Of a stretch of 64,000 bases of DNA, positions 1 to 50,010 are shown piece after piece; the first letter of the stretch is position 1; each line of letters starts with the position of its first letter. A program made the position numbers and the translations under genes. Below the pieces are notes generated by a model. That model saw only the letters and a list, made by a program, of their open reading frames with translations. It was not told the origin of the DNA and made no database searches. The DNA lies in assembly GCA_002839705.1 (NCBI GenBank), contig PGYO01000006.1:1-64000 (forward strand), given 5' to 3'. The stretch comes from Methanobacteriales archaeon HGW-Methanobacteriales-1 (GTDB lineage Archaea; Methanobacteriota; Methanobacteria; Methanobacteriales; Methanobacteriaceae).

Positions 1-1
1 T

Positions 2-160
2 ACTAATGCTACATTGACATTGACAGTATTAGTTAATGGTACTGGAACAATAATTAACAATGCTGCAAAAACTGCACCGGATATTAATTTAGTCCAAGAT
101 CCGAACTTGAACAACAACTCAAAAGAAATATTTTTAAATGTTGTTGAACGAATACAATAA
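2..160 (+). CDS. C-terminal end of an adhesin-like surface protein (partial)
   Basis: An open frame runs from the window edge to TAA at 158-160, giving 52 residues. It begins NATLTLTVLVNGTGTIINNA, which resembles the end of a DUF11/CARDB-type beta-sandwich repeat found in large Thr/Asn-rich surface proteins of Methanobacteriales. The remainder is an Asn-rich tail with no obvious membrane anchor. Most of the gene lies outside the window, so the family call is tentative. The lasso precursor starts 28 bases after its stop on the same strand and could be cotranscribed. Confidence 0.55.
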   Translation, partial: TNATLTLTVLVNGTGTIINNAAKTAPDINLVQDPNLNNNSKEIFLNVVERIQ

Positions 161-188
161 AAATAATACTATAATGGAGAATAATAAA

Positions 189-320
189 ATGAAAAATTTG
201 AAGAGATTAAAGGTATATGGGAAACCTATGATAAAAGAATATGGTGATGTTGCAAAGATGACTAGGGGTCTTTGGACTACAGGACCTCCGGATGGACAGC
301 CTTCTAGAGCTTCAGATTAG
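189..320 (+). CDS. Lasso peptide precursor (A protein)
   Basis: This gene encodes 43 residues. The start chosen is ATG 189, which has GGAG at 176-179; ATG 174 is in frame but has no such site. The leader matches the lasso leader pattern Y-x-x-P-x-(L/I)-x3-G-x5-T: Tyr10, Pro13, Ile15, Gly19, Thr25. Thr25 is the penultimate leader residue, which places cleavage after Arg26. The core is then GLWTTGPPDGQPSRASD: Gly1 supplies the amine and Asp9 the side-chain carboxylate of a 9-residue macrolactam, leaving an 8-residue tail. Ser13 and Ser16 are possible targets of the kinase in the locus. The gene is convergent with the cyclase. The core assignment follows family rules and is not measured. Confidence 0.9.
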   Translation: MKNLKRLKVYGKPMIKEYGDVAKMTRGLWTTGPPDGQPSRASD

Positions 321-327: not shown

Positions 328-2202
328 TTATAAATTTTTTATTTTTATATTATTTTTTTCAAGCCAAATAACAAATGTAACTAATTGCCATAGATCCCAA
401 ATGTCAGAATAGTTGGATTTTTTTTTGGATCTTTGATATATTCTTTCAAAATCTTCTTTTTTCACGAAAATGTCGTATTTATCAGATAATTCATAAATGA
501 TTTCTTCTAACTTTTTTTCCTCACCTCTGATGAAGTTATTTTTAAATACAGATCCAAAAAATCTTTTTCTTGGACGCCATTGTATTGATTTAGGTAGTAT
601 ATTTTCCATACTTCTACGCAATATTAACCGGTTCCAGCCTGATTGAAACTTCTGCTCCGCCGGTATCCCATAACAAAATTCAACTACTCTTTTATCAAAA
701 AATGGAAATCTTGGTTCAATTGAAAATGCAGAAAAATGTTTATTTAACTGTTCAAAAGCATTTTGATGAGTTCCAAGAGTAAGCCATTTATAATGGAATT
801 TTTTGGAAGATTTTGGTTGAATGGAAGACAGATTAAGTTCTTCATATCTTTTTTTAAAATCAAATTTTGAACCAATTAAGTCATTTTCGAGAATTGAATC
901 TTTAAGTGTTTTATTTTGTTTTTTATTCCATAATTTTTTAATTGTTAATGGAATAGATGGTAGAATAATATTACTATATATAATATTTAAATAATCTTCA
1001 TTTTTGTTTTTTGAAATAGAGTTAATTTCTTTAATTAATTTTTTTAATTTTAAATTAAATGCAAGTTCCTTTAGATAAAATTGACCCATATAACATACAG
1101 TATCACCATCATATCCACTAATCGCAACACGAATATTATTTTTTTTCATTTTTTTAAATAAATCCCAAAATAAATTCATATTAGGTGAGGGAATGGGTTG
1201 TTCTAAGTGCCACATTAAATTGTCAACATCTTTTAAAGGGCTTATTGGATCAACAATCAAAAAATGAGAGTTGGTAACTTTAGAATTTAACACGATATCA
1301 ATAAAAAAGCTTTCGTCATCCTCAGGAAATTTATTACTAATTAGAGAAAAAGTATTCATATCTTTTTTTGTATTGGTTATATTTTGGGATGCACTAAAAA
1401 TTGAAGATGAATCTAAACCTCCACTTAATTCAAATCCAATTGGGAATGAGGATCTTAAACGGCATTTAATTGCTTTATTAAAAACTTCAAGGAATGCATT
1501 GACATATTCCTCATTAGAATCCATTATTATTTCTAATTTGGGATCTAATCTCCAATAATTACTCACTTTTTGATTTGAATAATCAATTGTGATTGAATGA
1601 TTTCCGGGTAATCTTAGTATATCTTTATAGAATGTTAAAGTTGTTTCATTTGAGATAGATGTTAAATAATATAATGCTTTTAAATATTCTAAGTCTTGAG
1701 GAATGTTTGGAATACATAAAATTGCTTTTAATTCTGTTGCAAAAATGAACTTTTCTCTATCGGAATAATAATAAAATGGCTTAACACCAAAATGATCACG
1801 AGCACAGAATAATTTTTCCTTATTTTTGTCCCATATTGCAAATGCAAAATCACCTAATAGCTTGTCTGGACAATTTTCACCCCATTTTTGATAAGCCTTT
1901 AAAATAAAATAACTATCTGCGATATTTTCTTCATCTGGTATTTCTAACTCTTGAGATAATTCTTTTCTATTATCGATCCGGGCATCTGCAGTTATAACTA
2001 AGCCATCTTCTTCAAAGGGTAATTTTTCATGTAATGACTCTTCTGTGGTCCAGAGCATCTGGTGACCAAGTGCTATAGGTCCTTCATACCAAACCGCAGA
2101 CTCATCAGGCCCTCTGTGAGAAAGTTTATCATTCATTTTTTTCATGAGTTCAGGGTCAACTTTATATCCATTTCTGAAAAAGATTCCGGCAATTGCACTC
2201 AT
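328..2202 (-). CDS. Lasso cyclase, asparagine-synthetase-B-like (C protein)
   Basis: This 624-residue protein should activate the Asp9 side chain of the core with ATP and close the lactam on Gly1. It has an N-terminal class II glutaminase-like domain (SHRGPDE near residue 30, GDFAFAIWD, ARDHFGVKPFYYY) and a C-terminal PP-loop synthetase domain with SGGLDSSS near residue 260 and SGYDGDT further on. The N-terminus is MSAIAGIF, not MCGIAGIF, so the glutaminase Cys is absent. That is usual for lasso cyclases and argues against a true asparagine synthetase. The kinase gene ends 19 bases upstream, so the two are probably cotranscribed. Confidence 0.9.
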   Translation of the reverse strand: MSAIAGIFFRNGYKVDPELMKKMNDKLSHRGPDESAVWYEGPIALGHQMLWTTEESLHEKLPFEEDGLVITADARIDNRKELSQELEIPDEENIADSYFILKAYQKWGENCPDKLLGDFAFAIWDKNKEKLFCARDHFGVKPFYYYSDREKFIFATELKAILCIPNIPQDLEYLKALYYLTSISNETTLTFYKDILRLPGNHSITIDYSNQKVSNYWRLDPKLEIIMDSNEEYVNAFLEVFNKAIKCRLRSSFPIGFELSGGLDSSSIFSASQNITNTKKDMNTFSLISNKFPEDDESFFIDIVLNSKVTNSHFLIVDPISPLKDVDNLMWHLEQPIPSPNMNLFWDLFKKMKKNNIRVAISGYDGDTVCYMGQFYLKELAFNLKLKKLIKEINSISKNKNEDYLNIIYSNIILPSIPLTIKKLWNKKQNKTLKDSILENDLIGSKFDFKKRYEELNLSSIQPKSSKKFHYKWLTLGTHQNAFEQLNKHFSAFSIEPRFPFFDKRVVEFCYGIPAEQKFQSGWNRLILRRSMENILPKSIQWRPRKRFFGSVFKNNFIRGEEKKLEEIIYELSDKYDIFVKKEDFERIYQRSKKKSNYSDIWDLWQLVTFVIWLEKNNIKIKNL

Positions 2203-2221
2203 ATTATCACATATAAATTCT

Positions 2222-3112
2222 TTATCCCATATCCTTTTGAATTGATTTAATTACTTTATAAAGTTCTTCCAATGAATCAGGTATTTCTAAAAGCGAAATG
2301 TCGACATATTTTAATAAAGATGCGCATTGTTGTAAATGAATAGGATGGTCTGATTTTTTATACCTTGAAATTCCAAAAGTATTTTCAACTAATTTAATTA
2401 TAGCCTCTTGAGGTTTAAAATTATCAATACTTATTTTATTTCCTCTTTGAAGAACATATAATTTTTTTAAAGGTATTTCCTTTAATGAAAAACTATTAAC
2501 CGTTGGAACATGAATTTTATCAATTTCATAATCATTATAATAAACCTTTTGCAAGCTGAAATTACCATATTGTCTGGATTTATAGGATAATCTTAAACTG
2601 GGAAAACCTGGTTTAATTAAGGGAGTTTGATTTTTCATATCAATGGCTATATAATCATCAGCAATAATGGGATAACCTTCTTTATAAAATGTCATTGCTG
2701 TTGTAGATTTACCATATCCTTTAATCCCTAAAAATGCTATCGCTTGGTTATTTATATTCACTGCACTTGCATGTAATAAAAACAATCCTCTTTGATAAAG
2801 AAGAGTGGCCATCACAGTACCTAAAATGAAGCTCCGCAATATTAAATCATTAATATCTGGAACGGAATTAACTATAATTTCATTCCCATTTGATATTTTA
2901 AACTTACCTATCTCATCCCAGAATCTGTAAATTGTCTTTTTTGTAACTCTAAAATATTCTCCTTCTACAATTGTATTACCGGAATAAATATCAAAATGTC
3001 CATATTTGATTGTTAAATCCGGTTTTTTTGATTCATATTGGACAAGTTCTGGAAGAAATATTTCAGAATGGATATTTAGTCCAAATGCTTTGTATTTGTA
3101 CATTTTAATCAT
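2222..3112 (-). CDS. HPr-kinase-like ATPase of the lasso locus
   Basis: This 296-residue protein resembles the HprK-type kinases found in some lasso clusters, of which the paeninodin kinase is the best known (it phosphorylates a C-terminal Ser of the precursor). A Walker A loop, GIKGYGKSTT, lies near residues 128-137, followed by ADDYIAID, which fits a metal/base motif. About 110 residues precede the P-loop. Translation may start at Met1 or Met4; neither has a strong ribosome binding site. It lies directly upstream of the cyclase. The likely substrate is the precursor Ser16 or Ser13 of the core, by analogy only. Confidence 0.75.
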   Translation of the reverse strand: MIKMYKYKAFGLNIHSEIFLPELVQYESKKPDLTIKYGHFDIYSGNTIVEGEYFRVTKKTIYRFWDEIGKFKISNGNEIIVNSVPDINDLILRSFILGTVMATLLYQRGLFLLHASAVNINNQAIAFLGIKGYGKSTTAMTFYKEGYPIIADDYIAIDMKNQTPLIKPGFPSLRLSYKSRQYGNFSLQKVYYNDYEIDKIHVPTVNSFSLKEIPLKKLYVLQRGNKISIDNFKPQEAIIKLVENTFGISRYKKSDHPIHLQQCASLLKYVDISLLEIPDSLEELYKVIKSIQKDMG

Positions 3113-3210
3113 TAGTTAATTTATTGTTCCATTTTTGAACATTTAGTTTTTAATTTAATCAAGTTATATTTGAATTTATATTTTAAGTTGTTATATCTAT
3201 GATTTTTCAT

Positions 3211-3279
3211 TCATTTTTTCATGAGTTCTGGATCTACATCCTTTCCATTTCTCATGAATATTCCAGTTATGCCGCTCAT
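3211..3279 (-). pseudogene. Remnant of a second lasso cyclase gene (N-terminus only)
   Basis: Read on the minus strand from ATG 3279, this stretch gives MSGITGIFMRNG and then DVDPELMKK followed by TGA. The intact cyclase at 2202 begins MSAIAGIFFRNG, also followed by VDPELMKK and then MNDK. The fragment ends because an A-run is one base shorter than in the intact gene; bases just past the break still resemble the intact sequence (ATGAATGA). A TATA-like ATTATATAAC lies about 60 bases upstream (about 3338-3350). It looks like a duplicated or recombined cyclase 5' end left in the leader of the kinase-cyclase unit. Confidence 0.7.
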
Positions 3280-3361: not shown

Positions 3362-3832
3362 TCATTTATAGTATTTCCCAGTACATTCTTCAATTTCTAT
3401 CTTAATAATACTGGTCCCCCTGAGGGCCTTTTCTGGAAAATCAATTCCTTCTAGTGGGGAGTGTATTTGCCCACGATTTTATTAAGAACATCTATTTTTA
3501 ATTCAACATCATCCTTGATAATTGATGCTTTTCCCATTATTACCACGCTTTCGTACTCGGTATTTACATCGCATGGTGCATCATCTAAGATGAGGCCTTT
3601 CATAATGAAAGTTTCAAAACATACTTTTTCATTAGCTAAAAACATTGCTTATTTTCTGGCCTCGTGGTAAGCCGTGGATGAAAATTTTGTTATCGTGGTA
3701 AACATGGTGTACTGGTAAAACATATGGGGATCCGTTTTCATTTATAGTTGCTATGTTTCCGACAGGTGTTTTTTCCAGGACTTCGGTTATCTGTTCTTCA
3801 CTTAGTGGATGTTTTTTCATTCTATACTGCAT
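3362..3832 (-). pseudogene. Nim/pyridoxamine-phosphate-oxidase-like flavoprotein, two frameshifts
   Basis: Three consecutive frame segments rebuild one protein of about 156 residues. The first (MQYRMKKHPLSEEQITEVLE, then VGNIATINENG, YVLPVHHVYHD, HGLPRGQK) is the N-terminal half of a Nim/PNPOx split-barrel protein. A one-base excess in a T run near 3645 moves the frame to NEKVCFETF, then ESVVIMGKA and LNKIVGKYTPH. A one-base loss near 3453 moves it again to LEGIDFPEKALRGTSIIKIE, ending at TGA 3362-3364. The protein would be an FMN-dependent reductase or oxidase. Both lesions could be sequencing errors, but two in 470 bases suggest decay. Confidence 0.7.
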
Positions 3833-4113: not shown

Positions 4114-4698
4114 TTAGATTTGATTATTTATAAAAAATTCTAGATTCCCCAGCATAATTATTTTCGGCCCAGTTAATACATTAGAAATAAATGGATCTTC
4201 CTCTTTTATTCTTTTATCTAATTCTTCTTTACTGAATAAAACATAACTTATTTCTCTCAATAATGTTTCTTCTAGCTTTGAAAGTTCTTTTATTAATATG
4301 TCTTCATTTATATCTCCAACAAGAAAAATATCCAGATCACTATCTATTGTATCTTCTCCTGAGGCAAAGGAACCATAGATAAAGGCCAGCTCGATATTAC
4401 CTAAATTTGTTAAATCATCCTTCAGGACTTTGGAGACGCCTTCAGTTTTTAAAATAATGCTTTTTAGTTCAGGATATATGGAAAAATTTTTATTTATAAT
4501 GTAATATTTCATATTCCCTTTATTTTTACTTATTAATAGTCCAATATCTTCTAAATTAGATAATTCTCTTCTAACGGCATTAATATTTTCATGAATGGTT
4601 CTTGAAATTTCTCTTATAAATAATTCAGTGTCAGGATTCATTAAAAATAATGTTAAAATTTTAACCCTGGTTTTAGATGTGAAAATTTTATTTAGCAT
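4114..4698 (-). CDS. Winged-helix plus nucleotidyltransferase domain protein
   Basis: The protein has 194 residues. Residues 1-75 look like an ArsR/MarR-type winged helix (KTRVKILTLFLMN, FIREISRTI, LSNLEDIGLLIS). Residues from about 95 carry a minimal nucleotidyltransferase core with GSFASGEDTIDSDLDIFLVG, the GS-x9-DxD metal/nucleotide motif. It starts 12 bases after the leader peptidase stop, so it is probably translated from the same message. Nucleotidyltransferases occur in some kinase-containing lasso clusters and may decorate a phosphorylated peptide. This HTH-fused form also occurs alone in archaea, including MNT-type toxin partners, so a role in peptide modification is a guess. Confidence 0.7.
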   Translation of the reverse strand: MLNKIFTSKTRVKILTLFLMNPDTELFIREISRTIHENINAVRRELSNLEDIGLLISKNKGNMKYYIINKNFSIYPELKSIILKTEGVSKVLKDDLTNLGNIELAFIYGSFASGEDTIDSDLDIFLVGDINEDILIKELSKLEETLLREISYVLFSKEELDKRIKEEDPFISNVLTGPKIIMLGNLEFFINNQI

Positions 4699-4710
4699 TG
4701 TATAAAAAAG

Positions 4711-5133
4711 TTACTCAGATTTTTCACTCAAATCCATAATTGGAACATAATCAATCTCTGATTCACCTAAAACCACACCACCATCATGTTCCAACCAGGC
4801 ATGGGCCTCAAATTCTCCTTTATCTCTGGAAACCCCTATTTTAATATTGGAATCATATCCATACTGGGATAATAATATTTGGCCAGCCAGGGCCCGTACC
4901 AAACAGGTAGGTCTGGGAGTAAAATCACTCATCACATGTATGGCCCAGGTAATTAGCTTTAATGGTATTCTATTTTTACCACTTTTAGACGTAAATCTTT
5001 TAATTATTCTTTGAATTTGCACAAAAGAAAATATCCAGAGCATTATCCTAACTATCCACAATATGGTCAGGGCTTTAATTAGAAGCCATTTAGTTTCATT
5101 ATTTAATTTAAGAAAACTGTGGATAATAGTCAT
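4711..5133 (-). CDS. Lasso leader peptidase (B2, transglutaminase-like)
   Basis: This 140-residue protein has the B2/transglutaminase-core hallmarks: RPTCLVRALAG with the nucleophile at about Cys77, then IGV, then EAHAWLE with the catalytic His at about 111. An acidic residue in the following EHDGG is a candidate third member. The first 45 residues are hydrophobic and basic, as is common in B2 proteins. It should cut the precursor after Arg26, two residues after Thr25, so that Gly1 is free for cyclisation. It follows the PqqD-like gene by about 100 bases. Confidence 0.9.
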   Translation of the reverse strand: MTIIHSFLKLNNETKWLLIKALTILWIVRIMLWIFSFVQIQRIIKRFTSKSGKNRIPLKLITWAIHVMSDFTPRPTCLVRALAGQILLSQYGYDSNIKIGVSRDKGEFEAHAWLEHDGGVVLGESEIDYVPIMDLSEKSE

Positions 5134-5233
5134 TAGAGCCGCTCACTTTATAGAAATTATAATTAAGAAAATAGATTATTATTTGTTTAGGTAATTAATT
5201 ACTGGAAATAACTATTTTATCAGGATAACTATT

Positions 5234-5512
5234 CTAAGAGATCTCAATAAGATTTTTCTCCTGCAGATTACCCAGTAACTCTATTAAATCATTCTCACAG
5301 ACCTCTTCTTCCACATCGTATTCATTTAAAATGGCCTCTTTAATCTCTTTAACCGTTATAGGTTTTTGAATAAGATTCCAGATAAAGGCCCCTACTGGAT
5401 TAAGGCCATAATAAACACCGTCTTTAAGGCCTAAAATTACCACTTCGTCTTCTAAATCGCAGTGTACTGCTTCTTTGGTTACGGAAATTACTGATAAATC
5501 TGATATAATCAT
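5234..5512 (-). CDS. PqqD-like leader-recognition protein (B1/RRE)
   Basis: This 92-residue PqqD-fold protein contains VILGLKDGVYYGLNPVGAFI, the family's signature region, then a C-terminal helical part ending NLQEKNLIEIS. In lasso systems the free-standing PqqD/RRE protein (B1) binds the leader Y-x-x-P motif and presents the precursor to B2. Translation starts at ATG 5512 after AGAGGAAT. TATA-like sequence (TATTTAAATA, about 5535-5546) suggests that a B1-B2-nucleotidyltransferase transcript begins just upstream. Confidence 0.88.
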   Translation of the reverse strand: MIISDLSVISVTKEAVHCDLEDEVVILGLKDGVYYGLNPVGAFIWNLIQKPITVKEIKEAILNEYDVEEEVCENDLIELLGNLQEKNLIEIS

Positions 5513-6152
5513 TATTTATTCCTCTAGAAAAGTTATTTAAATATAATAATAGTATGTTCTATTAGTATATTCAATTTTAATTATATTATTTTTGGAATAT
5601 AATTCCTTTCTAAAATAGATAATATAAATAAACTAATTTCAACAAATAATCATATTAACCAATGCTCAAAATCAGGTATTGTTTTATATAAGTATGTTTT
5701 AATTACCTATGATTTTATTTGAGTTTACTTTACTTTAATGCATTGTTCATCAAAAACAATAATGATTGATTGAGTAGAACTACATCAATATATAATATTT
5801 ATCAATCAATGATTACAAAACTAGAATTATTGAAATTTACTTTATAAAATAATAATTTATTGATAAAATTAAAAAGTAAGCTGCTGACATGTGTGTACCC
5901 CGGCCAACAGCAACTTTAATATTAATTAATATTCTAGTATTATAAATAATTTTTGGCCATAAGGCGGGGTTTTATTTAAATTTAAATGCAGTATTGCTTT
6001 TATTTAACAATAATGCAATAATAATTTAATTTATACTTTAAAATATCCCTAATTTAATAGAGTAATTTATCAAATAAAGTACTAAATAGAATTAAGAATG
6101 AATTTTTTTCATAAAATAACTTAAATATTTTCTCTTGTTACTCCAAGATATC
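5513..6152. other. Intergenic region with one GC-rich island
   Basis: About 640 bases separate the divergent PqqD-like and MFS genes. It is very AT-rich except for 5883-5910 and 5956-5970. CCCCGGCC (5898-5905) and GGCGGGG (5963-5969) could pair with one bulged base across a 57-base loop. No convincing ORF is present on either strand (the longest from the island is an 18-codon frame). Promoters for both flanking genes must lie here. TTAAATATTT at 6121-6130 is a TATA candidate for the MFS gene. Confidence 0.4.
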
Positions 6153-7511
6153 ATGATAAAAGACACCCGATCATTTGCCCTTATTCTGGCCTTCCTAGCT
6201 TCTTTCTTAACTCCCTTTGTAGGTTCTTCCATTAATATCGCCCTCCCTCAAATAAGTCAGGAATTATCTATAAATGCTATTATTATGGGGTGGATTCCCA
6301 CAGCATATTTGCTGGTATTGGCAGTTTTATTAATTCCCGTGGGTCGATTTTCAGATATTCATGGCCGTAAAAAAATATTCTGGATGGGAATTATTATATT
6401 CACCATATCGTCTTTTTTAGCTGGCTTTTCCACTTCTGGTGAAATGCTATTATTCTTCCGGATAATTCAGGGAATTGGATCGGCCATGATATTTGCCAAT
6501 GTTAATGCCATGGTAGCCTCTGTTTTCCCGGTTATGGAAAGAGGTCGTGCTCTGGGAATAGCCGTTACTGGAGCATATTTGGGACTTTTCTTAGGCCCAG
6601 TTCTAGGGGGAATTTTAACCGAGAGTCTGGGCTGGAGAAGTATTTTCTTTTTCAATGTTCCTTTAGGAGTAATCACCACTTATGCTGCATCTAAACTTAA
6701 AGAAGAATGGAGGCCGGCTAAGGGTGAAAACTTTGATATAATTGGTACTTTTATACTGGGAATTTCCATGGTGTTGGTCATATTAGGACTTACTCAACTT
6801 CCACAGATGAATGGAGCATTTATATTATCTGCAGGTTTAATAAGCGGACTAATCTACTATTTTTATCAAAATAAAATCGAAACCCCAGTATTTGACCTGA
6901 GAATATTTAAAAATAGGACGTTTGGATTTAACAGCCTGGCCACCTTAATTAGTTACACAGCCAGCTATCCTTTAATATTTCTTTTAAGTTTATATCTCCA
7001 ATATGCTTTAAAATTAAATCCCGCCACGGCAGGTATTGTCTTAGCAGTCCAGCCACTTTTTATAACTATTTTTTCATCCTATGCCGGACGCCTATCTGAT
7101 AGGAAAGACCCTTATAAACTGGCCATGCTAGGAATGACTATAGTAACCATCACTACCTTTGTTCTGGCCTTTATTAATTCCCATATATGGGAAATACTCA
7201 TTCTTCTAAGTTTAATGGGTATCGGCTTTGCTCTATTTGGAACTCCTAACAACAACATTGTGTTCTCTTCGGTTAAAAAGAAATATTTTGGTGTGGCTGG
7301 AGCTTCTTTAAGCACCATGAGGGTGGTAGGCCAGTTAATGGGAATGGCCTTCTCTCTATTACTTTTGAATATATTTATTGGAGGAACATTCATTGGCCCC
7401 GAAAATATCAGTCTATTTATATTGTGTACTCAGATTTCTCTGGTTTTATTCAGTATAATGTGTTTTTTTGGTATTCTTGCTACTTGGAGGGGAAGAGAGC
7501 AATCAATTTAA
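6153..7511 (+). CDS. MFS drug/proton antiporter, EmrB/QacA type
   Basis: This 452-residue polytopic protein fits the DHA2 family. TM1 ends with SSINIALPQISQELS. Motif A-like sequence is GRFSDIHGRKKIFW, and the motif C-like sequence in TM5 is GPVLGGILTESLGWR. I chose ATG 6153 over an in-frame TTG at 6135. There is no clear ribosome binding site and the TATA-like box is about 25 bases upstream, so the mRNA may be leaderless. It exports an unknown small molecule. Because it flanks a lasso locus that has no ABC exporter of its own, it is a candidate for peptide export, but the two are divergent and such antiporters are common. Confidence 0.85.
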   Translation: MIKDTRSFALILAFLASFLTPFVGSSINIALPQISQELSINAIIMGWIPTAYLLVLAVLLIPVGRFSDIHGRKKIFWMGIIIFTISSFLAGFSTSGEMLLFFRIIQGIGSAMIFANVNAMVASVFPVMERGRALGIAVTGAYLGLFLGPVLGGILTESLGWRSIFFFNVPLGVITTYAASKLKEEWRPAKGENFDIIGTFILGISMVLVILGLTQLPQMNGAFILSAGLISGLIYYFYQNKIETPVFDLRIFKNRTFGFNSLATLISYTASYPLIFLLSLYLQYALKLNPATAGIVLAVQPLFITIFSSYAGRLSDRKDPYKLAMLGMTIVTITTFVLAFINSHIWEILILLSLMGIGFALFGTPNNNIVFSSVKKKYFGVAGASLSTMRVVGQLMGMAFSLLLLNIFIGGTFIGPENISLFILCTQISLVLFSIMCFFGILATWRGREQSI

Positions 7512-7731
7512 AATTTTAAGATCCTACTGCGTAAAAATAGCATATACTAGTTTATTAAAATTTTATTAAAAAAAACCCTTTCAATTAATTATAAAATATT
7601 TAGAAAAATCGAAATTTTATTATAATATCAAATAATGATTAAAATAAAAAAATAGAAAGACTTAGAGTCTTCCTAGATGGTATTTTGTATTTATTTATTT
7701 TCGCTGGATTTATTGAATAAAACCAATACAA

Positions 7732-9048
7732 TTAACAACCTAAACTTCCAGAATAGTTGAAGAAATTGTTGTTTAAAACATTTCCATATCTAAATAGTGC
7801 ATATCCCGCAGCACCATTGTTTAATGCGGCCTTAACATCATTGAGTAGCTCTGTAGCACTGAGTGGTGTTGGTTTAGCATCAGATTTATATGTCGTTAAA
7901 CCGATCCATACTGGCTTTCCATTGGAATGACTGGATATATATTTGCTAGTTTTACCAATCCAAGCAGCGTCTTTATTGTAATTTCCTTTGTAGACCATTG
8001 GTATTAACACATCCAGGTAATTACCTAGTTGGGTGTAGTCTTGTCCATAGTAATAGGCATTAGCATTGGTTTCGGGCATTAACGCTGCAGATAGGAGTGC
8101 ATTGGGTTTAACTGTTTTCACTGCTTTAGTGATTTTGGCCACAAGATTAGTGATAGTTGTTGTTCCACCTGGACTGGCATAAGCTTTTCCAGAGTATCTA
8201 ATGTAATCTAGATGAATACCATTGATACCATTAATTTTGGCATAGCTGACAATTCTTTTGGTTAAATTGTTCATGTAACTGTAAGCATAGGCCTTATTGT
8301 AGCCCAATTTGGTGGTTTTTTTGTACTTTGTCTGGTAAACTGTTTTGTATTTGATTTTATACGTGGATTTATAGACATATTTGTAGTAGGTCTTTTTAAC
8401 TAATTTATATTTTAATTTATATTTTAATTTACCATGGGAGTAATAGTAGCTTTTGTAATATTTTTTAACTGATTTTTTGTAAGCAACTTTTACTTTTACT
8501 TTGTACCAGTATTTGTACGCTTTTTTAACTTTTGTTTTGTAAGATGTGCTAACGCTGTAGGTATACCTACCTGTGGGATCGATGAATTTTCCATTACTCT
8601 TTAAACATAGTACCCAGGCACTTACCCTGATACCTGCATTTTTAGCATTATTTAAAAAGGCTGTAAGATTAGCTTTGAATTTGGAATCACTTAAAGCGAG
8701 CTGATGTAAGAATATATCTTGTATTCCACCGGTTTTAATCTGGGCAAAGTTTATATTTCCCATATCCGATGCTTTAACCCACATGGACCCGTGAACTGTA
8801 CTAGCTGAACCACTACTGGTGCTGGTTTTTACTGTATTTTGAGTGTTACTGCTGTTATTAGATGTATTTGTGCTTTGATTATGCTTAATTTCATTTTCAT
8901 CATTGTTATTTGAATTGGAATCATTGACATTGTTCTCTGTGTTATTCACTGAAGTTTCATTTCCTATATTCTCGGCATATATCACATCGGAGCTAAGAAA
9001 TACTAAACATAGGGTTAATACGAAAACTATTTTTAATTTTCGATAAAT
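7732..9048 (-). CDS. Secreted glycoside-hydrolase-like protein with Lys/Tyr-rich insert, probable AUU start
   Basis: The frame is open to ATT at 9048-9046, placed three bases after a perfect GGAGGTGAT (9060-9052). Starting there adds a signal peptide (RKLKIVFVLTLCLVFLSS, then VIYA). The next usual start, GTG 8985, would lose it. The mature protein has a Ser/Asn-rich linker, then a TIM-barrel resembling DUF4015/GHL-type hydrolases (MWVKASDMGNINF, GIRVSAWVLC, GINGIHLDYIRYSG, DVLIPMVYKGN, NGAAGYALFRYGN). About 80 residues of Lys/Tyr-rich sequence interrupt the barrel. It probably acts on or binds the pseudomurein wall or surface glycans. Length is 438 residues. Confidence 0.7.
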   Translation of the reverse strand: MYRKLKIVFVLTLCLVFLSSDVIYAENIGNETSVNNTENNVNDSNSNNNDENEIKHNQSTNTSNNSSNTQNTVKTSTSSGSASTVHGSMWVKASDMGNINFAQIKTGGIQDIFLHQLALSDSKFKANLTAFLNNAKNAGIRVSAWVLCLKSNGKFIDPTGRYTYSVSTSYKTKVKKAYKYWYKVKVKVAYKKSVKKYYKSYYYSHGKLKYKLKYKLVKKTYYKYVYKSTYKIKYKTVYQTKYKKTTKLGYNKAYAYSYMNNLTKRIVSYAKINGINGIHLDYIRYSGKAYASPGGTTTITNLVAKITKAVKTVKPNALLSAALMPETNANAYYYGQDYTQLGNYLDVLIPMVYKGNYNKDAAWIGKTSKYISSHSNGKPVWIGLTTYKSDAKPTPLSATELLNDVKAALNNGAAGYALFRYGNVLNNNFFNYSGSLGC

Positions 9049-9060
9049 TTTATCACCTCC
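9046..9060 (-). promoter_or_regulatory. Strong ribosome binding site deciding an AUU start
   Basis: On the minus strand GGAGGTGAT is followed by AAA and ATT. The same spacing with ATG occurs elsewhere in the window (GGTGATAAAATG at 41012-41024). The in-frame region between this ATT and the upstream stop holds no ATG, GTG or TTG. Confidence 0.65.
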
Positions 9061-10388
9061 ATCAATTAGGTCTTATTAGTTATAATGTCAAAAAAATTTA
9101 TTATTTATATTAAAAATCTAATAAAAGACTGCACTTATAATATTAATATGGACTTTAACATACTATTTAAAATATTCGGATTTAAAATTGAAAAAAGGCT
9201 TTATTTAGAACTATTAAATTAAAATGGACTTTATTAGAACGTTTTAAATCTCATTATATTGGAATTTTATTCCTGTGAATTTATTTCAACTGAAAGTTCT
9301 TTGAAATTGCTTTTTCTAAGAATATATATCTAATACATGGCAATTTTATTCGTAATGGTCTCTATTATTACTTATATGATAATGGTCTTCTTTTTATGAA
9401 CATAATAATATCACTTATAATTCAAAAGTATTATTAATTGATTAAATAAATTATTTAATGGATTTAGTTTATTATAATTGATATATTTTTCACTAATAAA
9501 ATTAACATAAAATATTAAAATTCCTTGTTTTCTCTCCGGAGATGATTTAGCACTTCGGCCCCAATCAAAGAGCAGATAAAGGCTTAAAACACTGTCACTG
9601 ATAAAATAGGCTCCATTTAAGATTCATCAAAATCCATTACAATTAAAATATCTTTCCATAAGCTATTTAATTGTATAATGTCTGATGCTACAAAATTCCC
9701 AGTTAATGTTTGAAATATGGATATTATTGGAGGTATAAACATTAAAAAAATCAAAATTTACTTTTTAAGAATCCACTCTTGCTTTTTCAGTAAAATAAAC
9801 AAAAGTAGTAATGCTGGGTGCAAAAAACGCCCAAAAGATGAAATTTGATAAATAAACCAGGCCTTGTTTTTATCACCCATACTGTAATAGAAAATATAAC
9901 CGAATCCCTAGAAGGCTTTGGCAATAGATAAAATAAAGAATAATTAATTATTCTGGATTCTTTATCTAATATAATAAAGTAAAATCCCATTAAAACATAA
10001 ATTAGAAATCAATAAGAGAAAGAGTTGAATAAATGTTCATAATAGTCTACCATTTGAATTTAAAATCGTTGAATAATCCTGCAAATAAGTTAATTGAATA
10101 CATTTAAATAATGTTTTGCGTATTATAATAGTTGTTATTACTTCTAATAGTCTTAATAAGGATAATTAATTAAATTAAAATATTAATATCAAAAATTAGT
10201 TTTATCATTTAATTAATACTCAAACTAATTTATAAAATATAATAACTAATTAAAATTATAAGAATTCTAATTATTTCATTAATCAAGTTATTGACATTAC
10301 AATACTACATTAAAAGAAATTCTATAATAATTCTGTTAAGTTAATCTCAAATAATCTACCTCAAATTACCCATTATATTCGTGATATC
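9049..10388. other. Long non-coding gap holding a decayed gene
   Basis: About 1.3 kb lies between the secreted hydrolase and the first GT-C gene. The only coding signal is the broken sensor gene at 9560-10015. The rest is strongly AT-rich with no frame I can support and no tRNA-like sequence. Confidence 0.6.
9560..10015 (-). pseudogene. Decayed N-terminal sensor region of a histidine kinase
   Basis: Minus-strand frames join to give LDKESRIINYSLFYLL, then SIAKAF-stop-GFGYIFYYS, GDKNKAWFIYQISSFG, HPALLLLFILLKK, stop, ILIFLMFIPPIISIFQTLTG and NFVASDIIQLN. The order and wording fit the N-terminal multi-helix region of archaeal and bacterial histidine kinases (AFWGFGY, FLHPALLLLF, Y/FIPPIIS). A frameshift lies near 9923 and in-frame stops replace a probable Trp (TAG) and a Lys-rich junction (TAA). 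No kinase domain follows. The family call rests on pattern memory. Confidence 0.5.
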
Positions 10389-12194
10389 ATGATTTCATTT
10401 CGTAAAATTTATAATAAGATGGAAAAAAGACCTTTCTGGGTTTATTCCATCATCTTAATAGCTTTTGCAATTATTTTTACCATTTATCTGCTTGAAGTGC
10501 AGATTAGAATTGGAGTAATTTACTGGGATGTATATCTTTATTTAAACAATGCACTTATGTTTGCCGGACTAGGTGACGGCTATAAAATTTACTTATCTCC
10601 TTTAATCCCCTTTTTAACATCCCTACTATATCGTGCTGGCTTTGTATGCCAGGCCTCTCTTTATTCAGTGACAGGTTTAATATTTATTCTGGGTATTTAT
10701 GGGATGTATTTACTCCTAAATCTTCGATTCACACATCTAAAAAGCTTTGCCGGGGCCATTATATTTACTTCCTGTTCAGTTGTACTTCCGTGGGCCGTTT
10801 CTGGAGCATTGGATGTTCCGGCAGTATGTTTTTCCATCTGGACTATATTTTTAGCAGTGTATGGTCTTGAAAAAAATAATAAAGCAATTTACTTTATATT
10901 TCCAGCAGCAGCTTTAGCTTTCCTTACTCGATATACGTCGGGCTTGCTTATTTTACCTCTTTTATTCTTATTTATAACTCATTATTTTGATAAGGGATTT
11001 ACTAAAAGTGAAATAAAAAAAATAGCTATTAGTATCGTTCTGGGAATTTTAATTTTCCTTCCATTTGTTGGATTTTTTTATGCTAATTTAGGAAACCCCT
11101 TCCCCTTTTTAGACCAATTCGGGGTTAGTGTAGAAAATCACGCTTCTACCAGAGATCCTGGATTAATGCCCGATAAGGCTTATTATTTAAAAAATATTCC
11201 TAACTACATTTCCAGTTATCCATTAAATAATTCTAGACTTGATTTTGGATCAATGATGACCCCAAATACGGGTCAAGTTAATCCGATTTCTTATTTAATC
11301 CTGATTTTAACCGGTTTGGGTCTTATTTCATATGTTTCCGGAATTTTAAATAAATTATGGGCTTTTTTAAAGAATAATTGCCTGGATCGTGCTACCAAAA
11401 AGAATACTGGCTCTATGAGGAATATTAATAAAAAATTAGATTCATGGCTCAATAATAGATATATCCTACCCATAATGGTTTTTTTAGTTGAAATCTTGAT
11501 TATTTTATTTATTATCAGTTTAGGAGGTAATTCATACTTAATAAGTGAACTTCTAATGTTTTTCACTATTTTAATTACCTATTTTGCTTTGCGAAAAATT
11601 GAAATCATTAAGGGGCGGGAAATCAAAAAGGTTTTTAGAATCGATTTAATTATTTTAATATGGTTTTTAACCTATCTTATTTCTCACAGCTTTTTATCCA
11701 TAAAGGTGGATAGATATTTCATCACCATGATTCCAGCTGTGGTTTATTTCATGGTTCTGGGACTTTCCAATACAGGTAATCTTATAGCGAGATTAACTAA
11801 TAAATTAGACCATAAAAAAATTATATCAGGAGCTCTTATATTAATTTTAGCCTTAACTCTATTTGCTTCTGCCCTGCAGCCCTATGAAGACAAAGTTCCT
11901 TACAAGGTTTATGGATTTTTGGAAGAAGGAGCAAAAATGATGAAAACCTATGATCCCCAATATAAAGAAAAAGTCATTTTTTCAGATCAATGGCCTGCTT
12001 TAAGCTGGTATCTCAAAATGGATGTTCAGAGAGGATATCCTCTGGATTTTAAAACATCAGATGAATTTTCACAGATGCTTAAAAATTCCAATGCCACCTA
12101 TTTCATAAGCACTAATGGAAGAGGTTCTTTGAATATGGAGGGCTATAGCAAAGTAGCTAATGACAAAATTGTTTATATTTATAAAAGAAATTGA
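10389..12194 (+). CDS. GT-C membrane glycosyltransferase (PMT/ArnT-like)
   Basis: This 601-residue protein has about 12 hydrophobic segments. After TM1 comes VIYWDVYLYLNNAL, which places an acidic residue in the first outward loop as in GT-C enzymes that use polyprenyl-phosphate sugars. Later motifs shared with the next gene are SGALDVPA, LTRYTSGLL, KVDRYFIT and WYLK. It probably transfers a sugar from a lipid-phosphate donor to a surface acceptor on the outer face of the membrane. ATG 10389 follows CGTGATATC. It is the first gene of the glycan island. Confidence 0.75.
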   Translation: MISFRKIYNKMEKRPFWVYSIILIAFAIIFTIYLLEVQIRIGVIYWDVYLYLNNALMFAGLGDGYKIYLSPLIPFLTSLLYRAGFVCQASLYSVTGLIFILGIYGMYLLLNLRFTHLKSFAGAIIFTSCSVVLPWAVSGALDVPAVCFSIWTIFLAVYGLEKNNKAIYFIFPAAALAFLTRYTSGLLILPLLFLFITHYFDKGFTKSEIKKIAISIVLGILIFLPFVGFFYANLGNPFPFLDQFGVSVENHASTRDPGLMPDKAYYLKNIPNYISSYPLNNSRLDFGSMMTPNTGQVNPISYLILILTGLGLISYVSGILNKLWAFLKNNCLDRATKKNTGSMRNINKKLDSWLNNRYILPIMVFLVEILIILFIISLGGNSYLISELLMFFTILITYFALRKIEIIKGREIKKVFRIDLIILIWFLTYLISHSFLSIKVDRYFITMIPAVVYFMVLGLSNTGNLIARLTNKLDHKKIISGALILILALTLFASALQPYEDKVPYKVYGFLEEGAKMMKTYDPQYKEKVIFSDQWPALSWYLKMDVQRGYPLDFKTSDEFSQMLKNSNATYFISTNGRGSLNMEGYSKVANDKIVYIYKRN

Positions 12195-12324
12195 GTATAA
12201 GATAAGAAACTTGTATTTTGAATATTAAATAATTAAATATTAATAATTATCATTAAATTTAAATCATGAATTTATTCCAATCTAATAAAATAACAGAATT
12301 TATTAAATTTATTGGGGCCTAAAA

Positions 12325-14052
12325 ATGGAAAAAATAAAAAAATGTATGGCCAATAATAAGCCTTCCTTGATAGCATTCACTCTCTTGGCAGTTATAACTG
12401 CTATTTTTACCTATTCTCTAGTTACCATACAATCTCAAATTGGAGTATACTACTGGGATATATTTTTATATCTAAATAATGCCCTTAAAATGGCAGGGAT
12501 GGGTGTGGGTGATACTCTTTATTTATCCCCATTTTTACCATTTATCACCTCACTATTTTTCAGAGCAGATTTCATCTATGAATCAACTTTATTTGCCATC
12601 AGCGGAGTTTTTTACTTTTTAGGAACTCTGGGCCTTTACTTACTTTTAAAAATGAGATTCAATGAATGGGAAAGTTTGGTAGGTGCCTTATCTTTTGCTA
12701 CATTCACTGTGGTTGTTATATGGGCCGTTTCCGGAGCTCTGGACGTTCCAGCAATTTCTTTATCCATATGGGCCTTGTACTTCACCTTACTGGCCGTTAA
12801 AAGAGATTCAAAATTCTTTTATATTGCTTTTCCCGTGGCCATGCTGGCCTTTTTAACCAGATATACTTCGGGATTAATTTTAATTCCCATGCTCCTGGTA
12901 ATTTACATAAACCGTCCACAAGGGCCGGATTTAAAAAAAGCTATCAAAGGAATAGTTTTAGGTATATTAATATATTTACCCTTCATGTTCTACTTTAAAA
13001 GACAGGTAGGGAATCTTTTCCCATTTTTACAACAATTTTCAGGATCGGCATCTGGTGCAGTGTCTTCTGCTAACCCAGGATACAGTCTAGATACCCTATA
13101 TTATTTTAAACACATACCAGAATATATTTCATCCCAGGCTATCAGTGGATATCAAAACATGTTGTGGCCTTCCTACAGTCTCCCCACAATACTGGCCTAT
13201 GTTTTAATTGGAATTTTAATGGTGGGAATTTTAATCTACCTATTTAAAATATTTAAAAAGTTATTTGAAGAGTTTAAAACTCTTAAAAATGGAAATATTA
13301 AAAATGGAAATGAATCAATAAATGTTTTTGGTAAATTAAATAATTTAAAAACATTTTATTTCAGACTAGCTGCTGTTATTATCTCCGTGATTATTCTAGT
13401 AGGAACTTATTCCCAGGTTTCTTATGCGGTAAGTGAAGTTATCATGGTTGTGATGTCCATTTCTATTTATCTCCTCTTAAAGGATTTAGATTTGAAATAT
13501 CTGGACCTGGATATCTTATTTTTAACCTGGTTTTTGGCCTTTTTAATTATGCACAGTGCCCACCCGGTTAAGGTAGATCGTTATTTCATAACCATGGCCC
13601 CGCCACTGGCCTATGGGATTGCCTTGGGTATTAATCAAATATCCAGTTTAATTAAATACAAATTTAAAGGAATTAATGCCACCTCAGCTCTGATTTCTGT
13701 TTTACTGGTATTCTCCATAATATTTTCCACAGTTACCTATATTGATGCCATTCCCCACTCGGATCCTCAGGTTGAATCAGAACAAGCTGCTGCCCAATGG
13801 CTTATGGATTATGATCCTTACTATAAAAACAAGACCATAGCTGCTGATAGAGGCCCGGCCTTTAGCTGGTACCTTAAAAAATATGTATTTACGCGCATCC
13901 CTCTAAAAGTGACGCATGAAGTATTTACTCAGCTCATGGCTGAAATTGATCCTGAATACTATTTGTACGTTCAATCACAGACTCCTCTTAATTTAGAAGG
14001 TTACCATGTCCTTAAAAAAGTAGATAACGTGCTTATTTATCAGAAAGATTAA
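12325..14052 (+). CDS. GT-C membrane glycosyltransferase, paralogue of the preceding gene
   Basis: This 575-residue polytopic protein is collinear with its neighbour: VYYWDIFLYLNNAL, VSGALDVPAIS, LTRYTSGLIL, KVDRYFITMAPP and FSWYLKK. It has the same GT-C layout with a short soluble C-terminal tail. The pair probably arose by tandem duplication and may add different sugars, or the same sugar at successive positions. It lies 130 bases after the first copy on the same strand. Confidence 0.75.
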   Translation: MEKIKKCMANNKPSLIAFTLLAVITAIFTYSLVTIQSQIGVYYWDIFLYLNNALKMAGMGVGDTLYLSPFLPFITSLFFRADFIYESTLFAISGVFYFLGTLGLYLLLKMRFNEWESLVGALSFATFTVVVIWAVSGALDVPAISLSIWALYFTLLAVKRDSKFFYIAFPVAMLAFLTRYTSGLILIPMLLVIYINRPQGPDLKKAIKGIVLGILIYLPFMFYFKRQVGNLFPFLQQFSGSASGAVSSANPGYSLDTLYYFKHIPEYISSQAISGYQNMLWPSYSLPTILAYVLIGILMVGILIYLFKIFKKLFEEFKTLKNGNIKNGNESINVFGKLNNLKTFYFRLAAVIISVIILVGTYSQVSYAVSEVIMVVMSISIYLLLKDLDLKYLDLDILFLTWFLAFLIMHSAHPVKVDRYFITMAPPLAYGIALGINQISSLIKYKFKGINATSALISVLLVFSIIFSTVTYIDAIPHSDPQVESEQAAAQWLMDYDPYYKNKTIAADRGPAFSWYLKKYVFTRIPLKVTHEVFTQLMAEIDPEYYLYVQSQTPLNLEGYHVLKKVDNVLIYQKD

Positions 14053-49119: not shown

Positions 49120-50010
49120 ATGGAAATTAATGGAATAGAAATTGAGGATACTTACTGCGAGATTTTTGATGGGACTTGCGTAAGGGCCATTATAACGGGG
49201 GATAATGATCAAATCATTGAAAGAGCTGCCTATGATGCAACTTCCACTCCAGGTGCAGTTATTGGAAGAGTTGAAGGTGGTTTAGAATCCTTCATTGATT
49301 CATCTAAAACTCCTGATGGTAGAAATGGCGCTATATTACAATTCTGGTTTGGATTAGATGATCTGGAGAAATTCGAAGTAGAATTATCCTATAGAATTCG
49401 CCAGGATATACTGGTAAAACCATTTACTTCTATGTTCAATGCCACACCTGATGCTGATGGTTTCATAGGCATGATGAAACAAGTAGGCCACTGTGGTGAT
49501 GGTTATGAATGGGAAGAAGAATTATATGGTCGTAATATGATTATAGTTCCTATTGCTATTCCTGACTTTAAAATTGAGAGTAAATTAGGATATAAAACTG
49601 GATTTATGGGTGCTAATTTCTGGTATATGTGCCAGACCAGAGAAGCGGTAATTGAAGCTGGTCAAAGGGCACTGGAGGCCATTAAAGAAGTTGAAGGAGT
49701 TATAACGCCATTTGATATTTGTTCAGCAGCATCTAAACCTGAAACTAACTATCCCTGGATTGGCCCTACAACTAATCATCCTTATTGTCCGTCACTAAGG
49801 CCCAAACTCAAAGAACAGTCTTTAGTACCTGAAAATGCAAATTTTATTCCAGAAATAGTTATTAATGGAATGGACATGGAAAGTGTAAAAAAAGCCATGA
49901 AAGTAGGTATTGAAGCGGCCTGTGAAGTAGATGGTGTTACTAAAATCTCTGCCGGCAATTATAATGGCCAATTAGGTAAATATAAACTTAATTTAAAAGA
50001 TCTTTTTTAA
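49120..50010 (+). CDS. Formylmethanofuran-H4MPT formyltransferase paralogue
   Basis: This 296-residue protein looks like a full-length Ftr: [20 protein letters not shown], then [33 protein letters not shown], and [20 protein letters not shown]. Ftr moves the formyl group between methanofuran and tetrahydromethanopterin. Its position after ehaR matches the second Ftr copy (ftrII) reported next to eha in Methanothermobacter. I infer a paralogue, with the main ftr elsewhere. Whether it is catalytic or regulatory cannot be read here. Confidence 0.82.

Follow-up and report, generated by a model that had tools for sequence, protein, structure and literature searches.

The question raised by this locus is whether a short open reading frame near a contig end of a Methanobacteriales genome encodes a lasso peptide and, if so, what kind of cluster produces it. 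The window, which is the whole stretch of 64,000 nucleotides analysed here, starts at the end of contig C6, within a DUF11 gene. A formylmethanofuran formyltransferase gene (Ftr) at 49120-50010 supports a methanogen host. It is very probable, from sequence comparison, that positions 189-320 encode a threaded 17-residue lasso peptide. The features at the contig edge are as follows.

1..160, + strand: C-terminal end of an adhesin-like DUF11 gene truncated at the contig start (DUF11, E 2.9e-4)
176..179, + strand: GGAG ribosome-binding site, 9 nt before the ATG at 189, read from the sequence
189..320, + strand: lasso precursor A, 43 aa (ORF translation, profile of five precursors)
189..266, + strand: leader peptide, 26 aa, MKNLKRLKVYGKPMIKEYGDVAKMTR (five-locus comparison)
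267..317, + strand: core GLWTTGPPDGQPSRASD, 17 residues by translation, with an inferred Gly1-Asp9 ring and residues 10-17 as the tail

The preliminary description had proposed a 17-residue core directly after Thr-Arg, with Asp at position 9, a Gly1-Asp9 ring and a mass of 1722.80 ([M+H]+ 1723.80). Codons 267-317 read GLWTTGPPDGQPSRASD, followed by a TAG stop at 318-320, and the translation places Asp at core position 9. The recomputed cyclic monoisotopic mass is 1722.7962, with [M+H]+ at 1723.8034, in agreement with the earlier hand values. The only acidic residues of the core are D9 and D17; thus, given the Gly1 start, D9 is the sole acceptor within the allowed range of positions 7-9, and the Gly1-Asp9 ring is retained as the best reading of the sequence. 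The presence of Asp in this range and the lack of Cys are as in class II lasso cores. Asp9 by itself is poor support for a lasso peptide, because about one random core in three, by our rough estimate, would carry an acidic residue at position 7, 8 or 9. Strong evidence comes from the leader residues together with the adjoining lasso genes C, B2, B1 and the HprK-like kinase. Arg14 is predicted as the likeliest tail plug. Capistruin, a bacterial lasso peptide with a longer core, likewise has a Gly1-Asp9 ring and an Arg in the tail; it is not known to have a kinase.

The leader contains Tyr(-17), Pro(-14), Ile(-12) and Thr(-2), with the motif YGKPMI. This agrees with the class II leader pattern, [Y/W]xxPx[L/V/I..] plus Thr(-2), and leader motifs of this kind have been described (PMC10368454, PMC13381572). 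Among 151 genomes of the order, seven show a strong cyclase match, and precursors were obtained from five loci:

Window: leader YGKPMIKEYGDVAKMTR, core GLWTTGPPDGQPSRASD, predicted acceptor D9
G139: leader YKKPIITYHGDLKVITK, core GGQDGKGDLAARYGEPYS, predicted acceptor D8
G140: leader YEKPELITHGDLKVMTT, core GGVSGGTESGDYRL, predicted acceptor E8
G141: leader YNKPTLKKHGDLKLITK, core AGQDGKGDYAGKYGES, predicted acceptor D8
G138: leader YKKPKLVIHGNLKDLTR, core KISGPGDGPSLMPS, predicted acceptor D7

All five precursors have Tyr at -17, Pro at -14 and Thr at -2 (5/5), a layout that matches characterised precursors (PMC10368454). In each, the YxxP Tyr stands 17 residues before the leader end, and this constant spacing fixes the cut site; with the lasso genes adjoining, the proposed core boundary stands as the best reading. 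The four related cores carry an acidic residue at position 7 or 8. The Pro-rich stretch GPPDG of the window core is similar to GPGDG in G138, and is too short to prove shared origin.

By Markov simulation, 64 kb of sequence would be expected to contain the leader pattern Y..P.[LIVMF]...G.....T 0.047 times; the window contains it a single time. Extended by its core portion and a nearby stop, the pattern again has one match in the window, and none in 150 simulated windows. NCBIfam and Pfam hold no model for the precursor family. A profile of the five precursors found exactly one copy in each of the five lasso genomes (E 5e-17 to 5e-22) and no further convincing copy in 139 family genomes (next match E 0.06); as the profile was built from the same five sequences, the informative part is the lack of extra copies.

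The lasso genes inside the window are as follows.

328..2202, - strand: lasso cyclase C, 624 aa (NF033535, 671.7 bits, cut-off 525)
2222..3112, - strand: HprK-like precursor kinase K1 (family match, motifs)
4711..5133, - strand: B2 leader peptidase with transglutaminase fold (NF033537, 96.8 bits, cut-off 33; PF13471)
5234..5512, - strand: B1 RRE protein, PqqD/RRE (PF05402; TbiB1 and PbaB1 matches)

An adjoining asparagine-synthetase-type cyclase and a B1 (RRE) with a B2 (transglutaminase-fold peptidase) are features of class II lasso clusters, and both are found here. Cyclase C starts with MSAI, lacks the glutaminase Cys and keeps the ATP motif SGGLDSS. K1 contains the H, GxxGxGKS and DD residues (HASAV..GIKGYGKST..ADD), which are conserved among lasso kinases (PMC10368454); its match to Hpr_kinase_C is weak, under the curated cut-off. 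B1 matches the solved lasso RREs TbiB1 (5v1u) and PbaB1 (9x90) and scores 74.4 against the NCBIfam lasso model, slightly under the cut-off of 80. Asn38 and Asp75 of B1 occupy the positions of N33 and D70, the Tyr-leader RRE residues whose roles are described in PMC13381572.

Two variants of the locus were observed in other genomes. In G139 (L016:4648-7959) and G008 (L019:896-4207), B2 and C are separated by a 1103-aa 7TM-PAS histidine kinase. It is a possible cluster regulator and is absent from the window. In G142 (L018:2042-4974), a 339-aa protein with a C-terminal PqqD/RRE domain precedes a cyclase 29% identical to that of the window, on a contig too short to reveal a precursor.

The remaining genes of such a cluster lie on another contig. 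The search with the ABC transporter of G141 revealed a 66% identical homologue (D) on contig C10 of the same genome. Beside D are kinase K2, the PF14907 nucleotidyltransferase N and a DUF11 gene running off the contig end. The reading frames of D and N are open. Thus the K, D and N gene set of paeninodin-like clusters is present, with K1 in the window and K2, D and N on C10.

L030:11005-11899 (G000 contig C10): K2, second lasso kinase, with the frame broken by one extra A in an A-run
L030:12425-16299, window 1-160, L014:4759-8310 and L015:11346-15389: DUF11 adhesin-like genes in lasso loci

The order is contiguous in G141 (N, D, K, adhesin, A, C, B2, B1) and in G138 (D, K, adhesin, A, C, B2, B1), and contigs break inside the repeat-rich DUF11 gene in all three genomes of the window's genus. 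C10 and C6 are therefore almost certainly joined through the DUF11 gene, a join drawn from gene order in relatives and not from a read. Among 139 family genomes, D and K occur together in five and N occurs in six, all of them lasso-cyclase carriers (p 5e-8 to 8e-10, with relatedness ignored). The DUF11 gene ends 28 bp upstream of the precursor on the same strand, and in 5/5 loci such a gene lies before the precursor, on its strand, between the kinase/exporter and the precursor. It is no more than a candidate member of the cluster, as there are 53 DUF11 domain matches in the window's genome. An MFS transporter at 6135-7511 was also considered as the dedicated exporter. This candidate was weakened once D tracked the lasso genomes; beyond the genus, the best copies share 44-53% identity with it, and none in G141 passes that threshold.

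The best explanation, with a probability of about 0.88, is a phosphorylated-type class II archaeal lasso cluster consisting of A, B1, B2, C, K, D and N, with an exchangeable core-C module. All of these genes, the leader motif, its spacing and the only possible acceptor residue are present in the sequence; cyclisation, threading, phosphorylation, export and a role of the product are predicted from them. B1 would bind the YxxPxI leader, the HprK-like kinase may phosphorylate the precursor, and B2 would cut after Thr-Arg. C would use ATP to activate Asp9 and close the ring with the Gly1 amine about the tail, for which Arg14 is the likeliest plug. N may attach one more group, and export of the product would fall to D, an MsbA-like ABC protein.

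Several genes between the cyclase and B2, or within that region, are broken or isolated.

3211..3279, - strand: relic of an older cyclase start, 22 codons, MSGITGIFMRNGKDVDPELMKK then stop (homology)
3451-3832, - strand: gene for a PPOX/Nim-like flavin protein, split over two frames and located between the cassette and B2
4114-4698, - strand: HTH-MNT nucleotidyltransferase, without a HEPN partner in the window

An intact 156-aa PPOX homologue is found directly before the cyclase of G139 (L016:8696-9166), and K2 is intact in G139 and G140. The broken frames of K2 and PPOX indicate that parts of the lasso locus in this genome are decaying. In G141, the homologue of the HTH-MNT gene is 79% identical and is followed by a HEPN gene (L015:7976-9038), which looks like a toxin-antitoxin-like pair within the lasso locus. 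The HTH-MNT protein had been a candidate for a PsmN-type tailoring enzyme. It was rejected as toxin-antitoxin-like; the PF14907 enzyme is on C10.

The broken K2 and PPOX genes, the cyclase relic and the HTH-MNT gene, orphaned here and with a HEPN partner in G141 alone, could also mean that the cluster no longer works: crippled by cassette exchange and gene breakage, it would keep a readable core and make no mature peptide. This is improbable, since intact copies of A, B1, B2, C and K1 retain their active-site motifs, D and N are open, and the extra base in K2 may be a sequencing error.

Among known systems, the Bradymonas Bsf cluster (BsfA, BsfB1, BsfB2, BsfK; PMC10368454) shares the YxxPxL-type motif at -17 to -12, a core ending in Asp rather than Ser, separate B1 and B2 proteins, and an HprK-like kinase with the H-G-G-G-K-S-D-D motif that is common to K1. 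BsfA has Ile(-2), an Asp8 ring and a phosphate site at Ser3, whereas the window precursor has Thr(-2), Asp9 and Trp3, and the Bsf host is bacterial, in contrast to the archaeal host here (PMC10368454). Clusters of the paeninodin/pseudomycoidin type have the same genes A, C, K, B1, B2, D and N, including the HprK-like kinase, the ABC exporter and the nucleotidyltransferase (PMC9266682, PMC7533575). However, paeninodin-like clusters have a WxxP leader, a Gly/Gln RRE pocket and a core ending in phosphorylated Ser, whereas the window has YxxP, Asn38/Asp75 in B1 and a core ending in Asp. Despite the gene set, the cluster is placed outside the paeninodin subgroup on sequence grounds, owing to RRE residues Asn38 and Asp75 and the Tyr-leader type.

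The linear polyphosphorylated peptides (LPP; PMC13381572) share with this cluster the Tyr-type RRE, the HprK-like kinase, the NTP transferase, the MsbA-like exporter and the location in polysaccharide loci. As B1, K, D and N are common to both, with an RRE like that of LppB, and as the window tail has no aromatic plugs, the processed product might be linear, or branched-cyclic and unthreaded. This reading is less likely still than a non-working cluster: LPP clusters have no cyclase and no B2 and use the signal-peptidase-type LppS (SpI-type leader peptidase), but the window contains a B2 peptidase and a cyclase with a strong lasso match, and judged on these two genes it is not an LPP cluster. 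That the ORF at 189-320 is a chance frame and the true precursor lies elsewhere is highly improbable; the ORF is short and the contig edge is 188 bp away, but every lasso genome has a single precursor at the conserved place, flanked by the DUF11 gene and C, and the leader spacing does not vary.

For the predicted lasso peptide, the site of phosphorylation would have to differ from the known cases. Known HprK-like kinases act either at the C-terminal Ser (PMC9266682) or at Ser3 of the core (PMC10368454, PMC13381572). In the window core, these positions are Asp and Trp3, so that neither usual site is present and the candidates are left among its hydroxyl residues T4, T5, S13 and S16. The Ser-ending cores (G138, G139 and G141) are accompanied by K2 alone, as far as seen. 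The cores without C-terminal Ser (window and G140) are accompanied by an extra divergent kinase, K1, beside A or C. Position 4 is the sole hydroxyl position common to both K1 cores, which, from two cases, is only a hint of the K1 site.

The preliminary description had added 79.97 for phosphorylation. The addition of HPO3 does give [M+H]+ 1803.7698; it assumes one phosphate, with the usual Ser sites absent. Calculated [M+H]+ values for one to four phosphates are 1803.770, 1883.736, 1963.703 and 2043.669, and that for phosphate plus hexose is 1965.823. As the usual sites are missing and polyphosphate and NTP-transferase products are known in such clusters, the native mass may be neither 1723.8 nor that plus 79.97. 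The authors of PMC13381572 did not find the native products of such clusters by MS; thus, a missing 1723.80 signal in extracts would not count against the structure.

The positions 10-31 kb of the window are filled with glycosyltransferases, nucleotide-sugar enzymes and a flippase, and a glycosyltransferase is also found on the C10 side. Bacterial paeninodin and LPP clusters often lie in polysaccharide loci (PMC13381572). From the location within a surface-polysaccharide locus, we infer an envelope or neighbour-facing role of the peptide.

From the comparison between relatives, the peptide and the catalytic region of the cyclase seem to be exchanged together, while the remaining enzymes are kept. 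The DNA of the window and G140 is 95.8-98.9% identical over 4682-12438. Their B1 proteins are 92% and B2 proteins 84% identical, whereas their cyclases are 47% identical and their precursors dissimilar. The cyclases of G139 and G141, from different genera, are 76% identical, and their cores are alike. In the cyclase tree, G139 groups with G141 (100/99), and the genus as a single clade is rejected (p-AU 1.1e-5). The B1 and B2 trees fit the genus relationships, on proteins too short for a strong decision.

Within C, identity is about 80-90% and drops to about 40% past ~150 residues. Four genomes show a downward step in GC3 at codons 157-191 (44 to 17, 52 to 17, 37 to 21 and 38 to 19). The step in the window cyclase is weak (25 to 17, p 0.057). 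Control genes show no GC3 trend like that in C. The homology of the window to three relatives ends at 3199, close to the relic of the older cyclase start. Most simply, the former C and A would have been largely replaced by an AT-rich K1-C-A cassette. This suggests that the exchangeable module here comprises the core, the whole of C and K1, with B1 and B2 remaining with the genome. As for outside relatives, the search of genome contigs with cyclase C gave a single match, at 28%, and the search of viral contigs and plasmids gave none. A distant cyclase relative with 28% identity is observed in a Candidatus Staskawiczbacteria genome (L020:4292-6214).

A broader, rather doubtful reading joins these observations. 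The core, the catalytic two-thirds of C and a matching kinase might swap as an AT-rich module between stable arms, namely the 5' part of C and the repeat-rich DUF11 gene. The kinase site might follow: a C-terminal Ser for K2 and, for K1, a residue within the ring, for instance position 4. The peptides might act at the surface, with rapid exchange in this archaeal locus under selection like that of biological conflict.

No archaeal lasso peptide with a characterised product was found in the literature search, and Euryarchaeota are mentioned only as an underexplored source (PMC7533575). The locus offers a defined mass and a set of five natural precursors whose predicted rings have 7, 8 or 9 residues. 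As near-identical B1 proteins are paired with unlike cores, the question of which part of the machinery reads the core becomes testable, as does the role of phosphorylated lasso peptides in archaeal cells. The kind of peptide is itself already known; the wider interest lies in the exchangeable module of core, cyclase and kinase and in its archaeal setting.
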